From assembly GCA_018667995.1 (NCBI GenBank), contig JABIQT010000189.1, positions 1 through 5,269 on the forward strand: a DNA stretch of 5,269 nt, given 5' to 3'. The stretch comes from Candidatus Latescibacterota bacterium (lineage in GTDB: Bacteria > JAAXHH01 > JABIQT01). The translations under genes and the position numbers were made by a program. Position 1 is the stretch's first letter. Every line of letters starts with the position of its first letter. The notes beneath the pieces are model-generated. The model was not told where the DNA came from. It worked only from the letters and a program-made list of their open reading frames with translations, and ran no database searches. Shown one piece after another: positions 1,133-5,269 of this stretch.

Positions 1133-1996
1133 TCAGTCACGGAAGATAGGATTGCTCCAGGCCTTCCTGCCGTCATGTCCGTGGATTTCAATTCGCAGAT
1201 AAGAGTCGTCGCATTTTGAGAGATCCCACTCAAGTTCCTGAACCGTGTTGTTCCCGCCATGCACCACCTTTACAGGCCCCGCAGCTGACACAACAGCGAT
1301 TCCCATCACGGGTTCGCAACGTACCTGCAGCCGGGCGCCGTCACAGATTATATGCTCGAATTTCGGACCGGTAGTCGCATAAAAACGCCCCGCTTTCAGA
1401 GTTTTGGTTACGGCAGTCTCGTCCCGCTCGCAGTACAGCTCCACCCACCCCAACCCGCGATCCCAGTCTGAATGACTATCGTCCGTCGCCAGACCCCACA
1501 CTCGTCTGCCTCGCCGCAACAACTCGTCCCAATGGGTCAACGACATTTCTGATCCGTGCCCTGTGGAACCGGCATTGCAGATTTCTATAGAATGATACCT
1601 TTGCAGTTCGAGCAAACGATCAACCGACATTCCAGACCAGGTCGGGTGATTGAGCGTCGAAAAACCGCCCTGTTGGTTGATCCAGTCAATGACTTCCTGG
1701 GTCCGTTCGCAGGATCGATCGCCTGCATCAACGGGTGAAGGAGCCATGACACCGGTGGCAAGCAGGTGCTCGCGATGTGAGAGTGAGGGCTCGTTGCTGT
1801 TCAGGACTAAGAGTTTACCGGTCGATGCGCCACGGTGATCCATCCATCGGTTGTGGTCGGTGATGGCGAGCACATCATAGTCCATCGATTCATATGCTTT
1901 GATCACATCCGAAAGGCTATTCACCCCGTCTGAAAACGTAGTATGTGTATGTAGATTGGTTTTCAACGTCGGTCCGGTGAGCGAGATCTGCTGCAT
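1133..1996 (-). CDS. PHP-domain metal-dependent phosphoesterase (CehA/McbA-like)
   Basis: This 287-residue protein should be a cytoplasmic metal-dependent phosphoesterase; no signal peptide is visible. The PHP metal ligands are all present in order: HTHTTFSDG (H16, H18, D23), ITDHN (D47, H48), E69, H77, NHP (H117) and DDSH (D173, H175). A complete set argues for an active enzyme. PHP proteins hydrolyse phosphoester bonds in many substrates (histidinol phosphate, nucleoside bisphosphates, RNA ends), so the substrate cannot be named. After the catalytic part, residues from about 212 form a beta-rich C-terminal segment that ends in GHDGRKAWSNPIF (274-286). That ending is shared by the CehA/McbA branch as I know it. 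The ATG at 1996 is preceded by AAGGG (2006-2010 on the + strand, 9-nt spacing). The gene is last in a three-gene minus-strand operon, 29 bp after the TPR gene. Confidence 0.88.
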   Translation of the reverse strand: MQQISLTGPTLKTNLHTHTTFSDGVNSLSDVIKAYESMDYDVLAITDHNRWMDHRGASTGKLLVLNSNEPSLSHREHLLATGVMAPSPVDAGDRSCERTQEVIDWINQQGGFSTLNHPTWSGMSVDRLLELQRYHSIEICNAGSTGHGSEMSLTHWDELLRRGRRVWGLATDDSHSDWDRGLGWVELYCERDETAVTKTLKAGRFYATTGPKFEHIICDGARLQVRCEPVMGIAVVSAAGPVKVVHGGNNTVQELEWDLSKCDDSYLRIEIHGHDGRKAWSNPIFRD

Positions 1997-2025
1997 TGTG
2001 ATTTACCCTTTACTTGGAAACAGGT

Positions 2026-3285
2026 CTATGGATTGCTCGCACGCAGTTTGATGTCTTTGTACCTCTGGACGTCTTTATCGCGCTTCAGGTATGTGGCCAT
2101 CTGGATCAGCGCGTCAAGGGCATCTTCATTGAGACGTTCCAACGTGTGTGCCTTCTCAAACAGCGGCACCGCAGCTGCAAATCTGCTCCCGATAAGCTCC
2201 TGCGCCGATCTTCTCAGGGTCAGGTCGGGTTCGTCTTTCAATGCCGTAAACAGTTCGGCACCATCGTTGAACAGCATGACTGCAAGATTGAAGTAGGCAG
2301 TACGTCGGTCGGGGTCTGCGCGAATGGCCTGCTCGTACACGGGTATGGCTCGTTTCCGATCCGTTGCTTCCAGTAGAGAGGCGAATCCGAGGAGCAGCTC
2401 GTAGTCATCTGGATTCTGCACAAGTGCCTCACTGAACTCTCTTTCCGCCAGCGCATATCGCTCCGGATCGTTCAGCAGCATATCCAGCTCCAGCTTTTCG
2501 ATGTCCGTTTTCGCCCGTGAGAATCTCTCTTCCAGCCGTTGTTCGGTGAAATCATCACTCATCTTTGCACGTTCCGCTGCGAGTGCGGCTTTTCCGGAAG
2601 CGACGGCCTCTATGGCAAGATCAATACCGCCGACGCTCATCCTGTGGAGGCGGGCTATTCTATAGTATACATAGGTGATCAGGGGATCCGGCATAACGTT
2701 CGGGTTGCTCTGATAGACTTCGGTGGCCCGCCGAAGATCGTCCATGGCACCGAGCGTGTCCTGGAGCGCCAGTCGTGCCTGGCCACGCATGTCGTAGGCC
2801 GGCCAATAGGCATTGTCCATGGTGGATGTTGAGATAGAGACGACGCAATCCATGTAATCCCTGGCTCTCTGGAAATCATGCCCGTTCAGCGCTCGAATTC
2901 CCTCGGATAGTAGCGGCCGGTACAGCTCCTTCCTCAACTGGCTTATCTCTTCGGTCCAGCTTCCATCATCGGCGGCGCTGGCCGCGGCCAGGTCCTGGCA
3001 AGTCCGTAGAAATGCATCGGCAATGGGAGGAGGCCTGCGTAGCCTCAACGCCTCCTGATGAGCGCTGATGATGGCCATCCCACGGTAAAAGTAGGCCTGC
3101 GAGGCATCTTCTGTGGTCAGTAAGGCTGCTGCGCTCAGGGCGTCGTTCAATTCTACGAGGGCGCTAGGGTAGTCGCCGCTCTTGAGGGCTGCGATTCCCG
3201 ATGCCACCTTCTGATTCGGCTGTCCATTGACGGGGGTGTTGCCGGCAATGACCAGACAACACGCTACGAAAAGGAACTGTTTCAC
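2026..3285 (-). CDS. Exported TPR-repeat protein
   Basis: This is a 419-residue helical-repeat protein, probably a periplasmic scaffold that binds other proteins. The N-terminus is a typical signal peptide: Lys2, a hydrophobic core (FLFVACCLVIAG, 4-15) and a likely signal peptidase I site after VNG (19-21). The two Cys lie inside the core rather than at its end, so a lipoprotein is unlikely. TPR-like helix pairs are visible at about 25-51, 122-151, 159-195 and 199-235. The clearest tandem pair is at 273-342 (FSEALVQNPDD..., YEQAIRADPDRRTAYFNLA), and a last pair is at about 368-413. A charged helical linker lies at about 234-270. The GTG start at 3285 is preferred over an ATG 13 codons upstream. 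It puts the signal peptide at the N-terminus, has AGGAG 10 nt upstream (+ strand 3296-3300), and overlaps the preceding stop as GTGA, which suggests translational coupling. No enzymatic domain is seen and the specific role is unknown. Confidence 0.85.
   Translation of the reverse strand: MKQFLFVACCLVIAGNTPVNGQPNQKVASGIAALKSGDYPSALVELNDALSAAALLTTEDASQAYFYRGMAIISAHQEALRLRRPPPIADAFLRTCQDLAAASAADDGSWTEEISQLRKELYRPLLSEGIRALNGHDFQRARDYMDCVVSISTSTMDNAYWPAYDMRGQARLALQDTLGAMDDLRRATEVYQSNPNVMPDPLITYVYYRIARLHRMSVGGIDLAIEAVASGKAALAAERAKMSDDFTEQRLEERFSRAKTDIEKLELDMLLNDPERYALAEREFSEALVQNPDDYELLLGFASLLEATDRKRAIPVYEQAIRADPDRRTAYFNLAVMLFNDGAELFTALKDEPDLTLRRSAQELIGSRFAAAVPLFEKAHTLERLNEDALDALIQMATYLKRDKDVQRYKDIKLRASNP
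3282..3285 (-). promoter_or_regulatory. GTGA stop/start overlap coupling two operon genes
   Basis: On the minus strand the bases GTGA hold both the GTG start of the TPR gene (3285-3283) and the TGA stop of the nucleotidyltransferase gene (3284-3282). An AGGAG on the same strand (3300-3296) lies within the end of the upstream gene. Overlaps of this type usually mean that ribosomes finishing the first gene restart on the second. Confidence 0.75.
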
Positions 3286-4091
3286 GGTGACTTGTCTCCT
3301 ATCTCTTCCAGATAGTCTATCCATTCATGGCCTTCGCCGAACTGTTGGCGTAAACCATCCATGAGCCAGAGCCTTTCCGCCGAGTTCAGATGGGCACTCG
3401 CGTGTTCGAAATCGTGACGATCTTTCTCGATGGTCTCACTCTTTGCCTTGTAGAGAAGCTGAATCGCAGGTTTCAGATAAGGAATGCCATCGGCTGTCTG
3501 AAAACCTATCTCTGAGATCGGCCCCCGAATCTCGGGGCAGCGCTTGTAGACCCAATTGTCGCTCTGTGTATTCATCAGCATGACCTGAAATGCCCAGGGC
3601 TTATCGTCTCCGCTCCGGCACCAGACATCGCCAATTTCTTCAAGGAAATCGCCGGACTCAATACGGGTAAGTGTACCCGAGTGGGCTTTGTGCAACTGCC
3701 AGTCGTGTAGATGTTCATAAAGCAAATTCTGGTCCCTACGCAGCACCAGAATGTCGGTGTCGTAGTGAATTCTTGTATGTTTCCCAAGAAAGAGATCAAT
3801 GGCCCAACCACCCGCTATCCACCAAGGGGCTCCGAATCCAGACATGATTTTAGCAACGTCGCTGGGACTGATAGGTTGCCATCGGAATGCATCTACCTCA
3901 TAAGCGGAGGACTCGCACTTGAGACATTCCAGAGAGAAACCAAGCATGGACTGCCGACCTGCTACCGTGACAACCCAGGGCCGGTCAGCAAATGGTGGCT
4001 CGTGCCTAACGTGGCTTCCATGGCCGCAACTGAGCTCGGCGACCCAGTCTTCGCGCTCGTCACGATGATAACCGATTATTGTTTGTTTCAT
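3282..4091 (-). CDS. DUF3565 domain fused to an aminoglycoside-adenylyltransferase-like nucleotidyltransferase
   Basis: The 269-residue protein has two parts. Residues 1-60 match the DUF3565 family (IIGYHRDEREDWVAEL, SCGHGSHVRH, PPFADRPWVVT, then CLKC). C22, H24, H27, C56 and C59 could bind a metal, but the family has no established function. Residues about 70-269 form a small nucleotidyltransferase of the group with the pattern AGGWAIDLFLG (93-103), TRIHYDTDI (106-114) and QLLYKAK (211-217), followed by a KD-x-x-DF motif (223-228). G94, G95, D111 and D113 are the expected nucleotide and metal residues. Relatives add a nucleotide to a small molecule such as an aminoglycoside, but many have no known substrate and some are mislabelled amino acid transporters. 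In family members as I recall them, a Glu follows the Pro before QLLYKAK; here it is Ala209. The gene is first in its operon and its TGA overlaps the GTG of the TPR gene. No clear Shine-Dalgarno precedes the ATG at 4091. Confidence 0.85.
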   Translation of the reverse strand: MKQTIIGYHRDEREDWVAELSCGHGSHVRHEPPFADRPWVVTVAGRQSMLGFSLECLKCESSAYEVDAFRWQPISPSDVAKIMSGFGAPWWIAGGWAIDLFLGKHTRIHYDTDILVLRRDQNLLYEHLHDWQLHKAHSGTLTRIESGDFLEEIGDVWCRSGDDKPWAFQVMLMNTQSDNWVYKRCPEIRGPISEIGFQTADGIPYLKPAIQLLYKAKSETIEKDRHDFEHASAHLNSAERLWLMDGLRQQFGEGHEWIDYLEEIGDKSP

Positions 4092-4131
4092 AGCCAGATA
4101 CCGTCAGAAAACCAGCGGAAGTAATCTGAAG

Positions 4132-4160
4132 AAAATACACCGTTGCCGGTTTGGTGCCAA
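4132..4160 (-). promoter_or_regulatory. Sigma70-like promoter of the minus-strand operon
   Basis: Read on the minus strand, TTGGCA (+ strand 4155-4160) is a -35 box matching the consensus at five of six positions. It is followed after exactly 17 bp by TATTTT (4132-4137), which matches -10 at four of six. Transcription would start near 4125, about 34 nt before the ATG at 4091. The boxes are embedded in the dyad at 4140-4174, so a regulator binding there would block or modulate the promoter. This is a prediction from consensus only. Confidence 0.5.
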
Positions 4161-4174
4161 CTGGAAACCAACGG
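4140..4174. repeat. Bulged dyad over the operon promoter, possible operator
   Basis: CCGTTG (4140-4145) plus GTTT (4149-4152) pair with AAACCAACGG (4165-4174), giving ten pairs with a 3-nt bulge (CCG) on the left arm and a 12-nt loop. A second short inverted repeat, TTGG-TG-CCAA (4151-4160), lies inside it and includes the -35 box of the minus-strand promoter. The position between divergent genes and on top of a promoter suggests an operator, but no regulator gene is visible in the window. Confidence 0.35.
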
Positions 4175-4184
4175 GAACTTCGGT

Positions 4185-4213
4185 TTGACAGCGCACATTG
4201 GTGATAATACGTT
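4185..4213 (+). promoter_or_regulatory. Possible promoter of the DUF255 gene
   Basis: TTGACA (4185-4190) is a perfect -35 box. The sequence 17 bp further is TACGTT (4208-4213), which matches -10 at only three of six positions. GATAAT (4203-4208) is a better box but only 12 bp away. The -35 box is convincing; the -10 is not. If used, transcription would start near 4220, about 43 nt before the ATG at 4263. Confidence 0.35.
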
Positions 4214-4262
4214 CTACTACTCAGCACAGAAGACTATGAAGATTTAATGCAATGGCGGGGAC

Positions 4263-5269
4263 ATGTCGAGACGATATCTGATGGGTTTGGTGGTGCTGCT
4301 CATGCTTGGCGGCGGTTTTTTCTGGCGGGGTTACGGTGTGGGTGGCCAAGCGGGCAACCGGCTCGGTGATGAGATAAGTCCTTATCTGCTACTTCATGCC
4401 CACAATCCTGTAGACTGGTATCCATGGGGGGAAGAAGCGCTGGCGCGCTCGCGCCGGGAGCAGAAACCTATTTTTCTGTCAATCGGGTACGCTACCTGCT
4501 ATTGGTGTCACGTCATGGAGCGTAATGTATTCTCTAATCCCGAAATTGCCGATTTGATGAACGAGCACTTCATCAACATCAAGGTAGATCGGGAGGAGCG
4601 TCCCGACCTGGATGATCTCTACATGACTGCCACACAGCTCATGACGGGCAGCGGCGGTTGGCCCAATTCGGTATTCTTGACACCCGAACTGAAGCCGTTC
4701 TATGCAGGAACCTATTTCCCTCCCGAGGATTTGCCCGGCCGCCCCGGATTTCCTGGCGTGGTGTTCGGTATGAGTCAGACGTGGACAAAAGAACGCGCCA
4801 AGGTCAAGGCCTATGCGGACCGGGTGACGGAGGCAATCCGAGCCATAAAAGCGGAAGCATTTGTGCCCGATGATTCTGTAACCATTGATCACGGTCTCGT
4901 GGCGCAGGCGGTTGCACAATTGACGTCCCGATACGACAGTCAGAATGCGGGATTCGGGGGCGCGCCGAAATTCCCCCAGGCCATGCAACTTGAGTTGTTG
5001 CTGCGCTTCTACGAGCACGACCCAGATCCCCGTATTCTTAGTATAATTACCCACACGCTCGACACGATGGCAAACGGTGGGATCTATGATCATCTCGGTG
5101 GCGGATTTCACAGGTATGCCACGGATGCGCGTTGGCGCGTGCCGCACTTCGAGAAGATGCTGTATAATCAGGGGGATCTTTCCCGCCTCTATCTTCGGGC
5201 GTATGAGGTGACGGGAAATGAACGCTATCTTCGCGTGGGAAAGCGCATTCTCGATTTTGTCGCCCGGGA
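4263..5269 (+). CDS. DUF255/SSP411-type thioredoxin-fold protein with N-terminal leader, truncated by the window edge
   Basis: The first 335 codons are present and the gene runs off the right edge; family members usually have 600-700 residues. A thioredoxin-like DUF255 domain spans about 35-190. Its family signatures are [21 protein letters not shown] (starting at 39), the redox-type motif C79-Y-W-C82 followed by [14 protein letters not shown] (108-117), GSGGWP (129-134) and a GTYFPPE segment. The second part begins the alpha/alpha-barrel domain related to N-acylglucosamine epimerases: [10 protein letters not shown] (230-239), [14 protein letters not shown] (272-285) and [10 protein letters not shown] (294-303). 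Known relatives include human SPATA20 and bacterial YyaL; their biochemical role is unsettled. The N-terminus carries two Arg and a hydrophobic stretch (about 5-21), which points to export or membrane anchoring. The ATG at 4263 is the first in frame after a TAA at 4245; its Shine-Dalgarno is poor (GGGG directly upstream), and Met7 is an alternative start. It is divergent from the operon. Confidence 0.9.

Follow-up and report, generated by a model that had tools for sequence, protein, structure and literature searches.

Two kinds of described protein are among the closest to the gene considered here. The first are the stand-alone proteins of the DUF3565 family (PF12088), which are normally 60-95 residues long and consist of this domain alone; a description of their function is lacking, and the family is not named in the literature searched. 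The second are small nucleotidyltransferases, namely the lincosamide nucleotidyltransferase LnuA (PDB 4FO1, 4WH5) and the aminoglycoside nucleotidyltransferase ANT(2'')-Ia or AadB (PF10706; PDB 4WQK, 4XJE). The window, by which we mean the whole stretch of 5,269 nucleotides that was analysed, carries a gene that combines the two, with DUF3565 as the N-terminal part of a protein of 269 residues. It is one entire contig (C618) of a MAG of 6.06 Mb in 1165 contigs, 85% complete and with 4% contamination, and holds the following features:

1133..1996, minus strand: PHP-domain protein, a flank common with the relative G013 (Pfam)
2026..3285, minus strand: TPR protein, 419 residues from a GTG start (ORF list, Pfam)
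3282..4091, minus strand: fusion gene, DUF3565 plus nucleotidyltransferase, 269 residues (ORF list, Pfam, whole-genome search)
3309..3881, minus strand: complete LnuA/ANT(2'')-like nucleotidyltransferase, residues about 71-261 (alignment, LnuA profile match)
3882..3908, minus strand: junction, residues 62-70, AYEVDAFR region (sequence reading, alignment with homologues)
3909..4076, minus strand: DUF3565 domain, residues 6-61, with C22-G-H24-xx-H27-xx-H30 ... C56-xx-C59 (Pfam, alignment)
4263..5267, plus strand: DsbH/DUF255 thioredoxin-domain protein, cut by the contig end (Pfam)

The DUF3565 half is complete, as a sequence-only reading of the window had claimed, together with its Cys/His pattern: it matches the PF12088 profile over residues 6-61 (profile positions 1-56 of 58, E 6.6e-29, 100 bits against a cut-off of 25), and the pattern C-G-H-x2-H-x2-H ... 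C-x2-C is present in full, with H27 and H30 as invariant as the C22, H24, C56 and C59 named in that reading. All positions that are invariant across 21 aligned DUF3565 proteins are kept in the fusion, including, besides these six, G23, R29, P32, P33, R37 and R46; the stand-alone proteins share the full profile match and the invariant Cys, His, Arg and Pro residues with it, at identities of at most 62%. The CGH and CxxC ligands probably hold one zinc ion. Against solved structures, the DUF3565 profile gives no significant match (best E 0.29), and structure prediction without an alignment is too poor for use, with a pLDDT of 60 for DUF3565 alone and 41 for the whole fusion.

The half that follows is a complete small nucleotidyltransferase, again as previously read: all the motifs named for it are present (GGWAIDLFLG, H109-Y-DTD with D111-x-D113, QLLYKAK and K223-D-R-H-D-F), and residues 71-261 align end to end, at 30-42% identity, with stand-alone proteins of about 190-210 residues from Embleya, Streptomyces, Shinella, Agrobacterium, Cytobacillus, Priestia and others. 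The metal-binding motif GG...D-x-D of the pol-beta type is kept (G94-G95 ... D111-T-D113), with D111 invariant in the alignment. The profile of this family matches the LnuA structures 4WH5 and 4FO1 across most of its length (E 1.3e-14), and ANT(2'')-Ia with E 1e-8. With LnuA, the fusion has the GGW..D-x-D motif and the C-terminal D..D region in common; it differs from it in the additional N-terminal domain and in Q169, where many relatives carry D or E. With ANT(2'')-Ia, it shares the block GGWAID..LG..TR.H.D.D and passes the cut-off of PF10706 (Aminoglyc_resit; residues 79-145, E 3.5e-9, 37 bits against 21), the match being limited to the N-terminal core. The NCBIfam models of the resistance enzymes score far below their cut-offs, with 19-23 bits against 300-350 for Lnu(A), (C), (D), (E), (P) and (AN2), and 22.4 bits against 350 for ANT(2'')-Ia (NF000064); with scores of about 20 bits, the enzyme half is therefore a distant relative that lies outside the known resistance families.

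Position 169 is Q in the fusion and in the two nearest actinobacterial homologues (Embleya, Streptomyces), and D or E in most others. The position is assumed to be equivalent to the third catalytic carboxylate of the pol-beta superfamily; because Q takes the place of D or E here, it is not certain that the enzyme is active. By homology, it would most likely use an NTP as donor and attach the nucleoside monophosphate to a hydroxyl group on some small molecule. The homologues that were fetched lie on plasmids, as single genes beside genes for GNAT, NUDIX, MFS efflux and hydrolase proteins, surroundings that fit accessory modification of small molecules.

The two halves are encoded in a single frame from an ATG start, with zero internal stops and similar GC3 on either side of the junction (0.58 in the DUF3565 half, 0.56 in the enzyme half); in the assembled sequence, the two complete proteins follow each other in an exact, in-frame join, and the continuity noted in the sequence-only reading is thus borne out. 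Downstream of DUF3565, no ATG, GTG or TTG occurs in frame before M83; the enzyme half is thus made solely within the fusion, as a separate start would cost it its first helix.

It also holds that members of either family usually occur as short proteins on their own. In about 75 DUF3565-bearing genomes, drawn from one broad sample and three at phylum level, nearly all copies stand alone at about 60-95 residues, and the homologues of the enzyme have the lengths given above. The fusion itself is a singleton in everything searched. A DNA pattern consisting of the W-V...G-R...CxxC region of DUF3565, a linker of 70-130 nt and the GG-x-A-[ILV]-D of the enzyme found no second case among 84,980 species genomes, a count that applies to fusions with W-V, GGxA.D and a similar linker on contigs of at least 3 kb, in a set that may not include the genome of the window; the DUF3565 part of the pattern matches nearly all the DUF3565 loci against which it was checked. 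The single match (L056) is due to chance, being antisense to mreC and with its linker out of frame. No such fusion was found in IMG/VR or among 77 genomes from a phylum rich in DUF3565, no match spans both halves in a tblastn search of the whole fusion against plasmids and phages, and a search of genome contigs with the single fusion protein as query returned zero relatives; viral contigs yielded one nucleotidyltransferase and no confirmed DUF3565. Since the fusion is not seen twice, conservation gives no backing to a functional coupling of its halves.

The small phylum to which the MAG belongs is represented by 15 further genomes, and neither DUF3565 nor the enzyme half was found in any of them, which implies a lineage-specific gain; close relatives thus offer no pair of adjacent separate genes from which a frameshift could have produced the present frame. 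The slot that holds the gene is variable. The DsbH-like gene is up to 64% identical to genes within the same order and at most 55% to genes outside it, and its neighbourhood with the PHP gene recurs in the relative G013 (64% identity for the DsbH-like gene, 72% for the PHP gene); because of this kinship and synteny, the contig is very probably binned correctly. Between these two genes, where the window (1996-4263) has the TPR and fusion genes, G013 has short ORFs only (L069:2954-4088), some of which resemble leftover pieces of a transposase-like gene.

The TPR gene begins with a GTG that overlaps the stop of the fusion gene as GTGA, with a GGAG upstream, an arrangement in keeping with an ordinary operon; the gene is thus a probable operon partner, to judge from the sequence a translationally coupled one. 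The N-terminus of the TPR protein resembles a signal peptide; in the other 15 genomes of the phylum, it finds weak TPR matches only and no clear homologue. An Rfam scan of the window gave no match.

DUF3565 has been joined to other proteins elsewhere. At L012:1480-2364 (plus strand; also at L109), it precedes MOSC and YiiM_3-alpha domains, beside the catalase-peroxidase gene katG; at L044:1219-1887 (minus strand), in one species, it precedes DUF1971, which we take to be a YeaR/TehB-type domain. In a congener of the latter (L034:1342-1761, plus strand), DUF3565 is followed by an apparent DUF1971 tail only. Four further candidates (L018, L024, L080, L095) were rejected as fusions, their long frames being N-terminal overhangs ahead of the DUF3565 start codon. 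As in the window, DUF3565 is N-terminal in the L012 and L044 proteins, with the other domain behind it; unlike in the window, the partner domains are unrelated to the nucleotidyltransferase. MOSC/YiiM proteins are reported to reduce N-hydroxylated compounds (PMC5818509, PMC3831636), and a homologue of tehB has been placed among the members of NsrR regulons (PMC1274295).

The neighbourhoods of stand-alone copies lead in the same direction. In four species, which share one genus and are thus not independent, the flavohemoglobin Hmp and an Rrf2 regulator are encoded within a few kb of DUF3565, and three different gene orders occur (12-kb loci L102, L103, L105 and L107; also L011, L017, L020 and L021); at L102, genes for an NsrR-like Rrf2 protein and a NorB-type NO reductase lie nearby as well, the latter seen this once. 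The remaining neighbourhoods are mixed; in the genomes of family f138, they contain sulfatases. We read fusions and neighbourhoods together as a weak but consistent tie of DUF3565 to nitrosative and oxidative stress, and a functional link to NO detoxification is possible.

On balance, we lean towards a real, one-off, in-frame fusion, in which a stress-linked DUF3565 module was captured by a nucleotidyltransferase of the LnuA/ANT(2'') branch. The protein consists of a complete DUF3565, a linker of about 10 residues and a complete minimal enzyme of the pol-beta superfamily; its first half is most likely a small stress-linked accessory module, which would serve in metal-held dimerisation, protein docking or redox/NO sensing and was captured by this enzyme here, and elsewhere by proteins of the MOSC/YiiM and DUF1971 kinds. 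The fusion gene shares a variable slot between the DsbH-like and PHP genes with the TPR gene, and was probably gained horizontally. Domains, frame, synteny, rarity and the other fusions are observed, while the metal, the enzymatic activity and the role of the fusion are inferred. The pairing of these two known domains is new and has a single example; it is a minor curiosity, unproven as a clue to what DUF3565 does, and a lone fusion cannot assign a function to it. Seen beside the fusions to MOSC and DUF1971 and the neighbourhoods with Hmp, Rrf2 and NO reductase, it leaves as the narrower guess a metal module that is portable and linked to stress. A more specific form of this idea, that DUF3565 is a metal-holding module (responsive through Zn or to NO and redox state) which tunes or switches Hmp, MOSC/YiiM, DUF1971 and nucleotidyltransferase proteins under NO or oxidant stress, is speculative and we hold it to be doubtful.

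The fusion could instead be neutral, the result of a deletion between two neighbouring acquired genes that left DUF3565 as a passenger. The gene is a singleton, both stand-alone families are sporadic accessory genes, and the slot between DsbH and PHP varies, all of which such an origin would accommodate; against it, every ligand and motif residue of DUF3565 is intact, so that the module is now, or was recently, under selection. We regard a neutral origin as rather unlikely, though deserving of some weight.

The sequence-only reading had gone further and taken the fusion as the first functional hint for DUF3565, with the module in the role of recognising or presenting the nucleotidyltransferase's substrate, which would make this enzyme its normal partner. 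The physical linkage and the lack of a separate start for the enzyme half agree with such a role. Elsewhere, however, DUF3565 is joined to MOSC and DUF1971, two domains without relation to this enzyme or to one another, and around the roughly 65 DUF3565 loci tested, homologues of the enzyme half are absent within about 1.5 kb. In one DUF3565-containing phylum, such a homologue occurs in 4 of 294 genomes, and in the one among these that also has DUF3565 (G609), the two are far apart. A substrate-reading role is not favoured because the partners are mutually unrelated and nucleotidyltransferases of this family are missing next to stand-alone copies; we consider it improbable, and the MOSC/YiiM and DUF1971 fusions, together with the NO-detoxification neighbourhood, give different and better hints. 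These hints point to a stress-linked metal module added to unrelated small enzymes, as in the captured-module reading preferred above, and not to a substrate reader.

A trivial origin would be an assembly chimera, in which two genes that are separate in the organism have become joined in the contig. The fusion is known from one contig of one MAG, itself fragmented and carrying some contamination (figures above), and an artefact of this kind has to be weighed. The join, however, keeps the frame and sits precisely in the linker that separates the two complete domains, which lie on the same strand and resemble each other in GC3; the coupled start of the TPR gene follows directly after the fusion, and the flanks are syntenic with a relative. 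All such features together would rarely arise from random joining, and we judge a chimera to be highly unlikely.

Least credible, to the point that we give it hardly any weight, is an enzyme half of the toxin type (AbiEii/MenT-like, with tRNA as its target) that has DUF3565 or the TPR protein as its partner, for which a weak profile match to the AbiEii-type toxin 8AN4 (E 0.006) and the coupled downstream gene might speak, but against which stand the far better match to LnuA (E 1e-14), the apparent export of the TPR partner, the occurrence of the homologues as single genes in the plasmid settings described above, and the lack of an antitoxin-like gene.

Some minor observations concern the stand-alone relatives of both halves. 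Among plasmid records (matches H8-H30, many from Agrobacterium), LnuA-like nucleotidyltransferases of about 200 residues are named 'amino acid transporter' or 'hypothetical protein'; as far as sequence can tell, the former label is without support. On a Pseudomonas aeruginosa plasmid (L052:4409-6385), DUF3565 lies between genes for a peptidylprolyl isomerase and an acetate kinase, touching the start of the latter. In the Pseudomonas phage record OQ658364.1 (match H35, 59407-59556), the terminal attR feature overlaps a DUF3565 coding stretch, so that DUF3565 may be located at a prophage attachment site.
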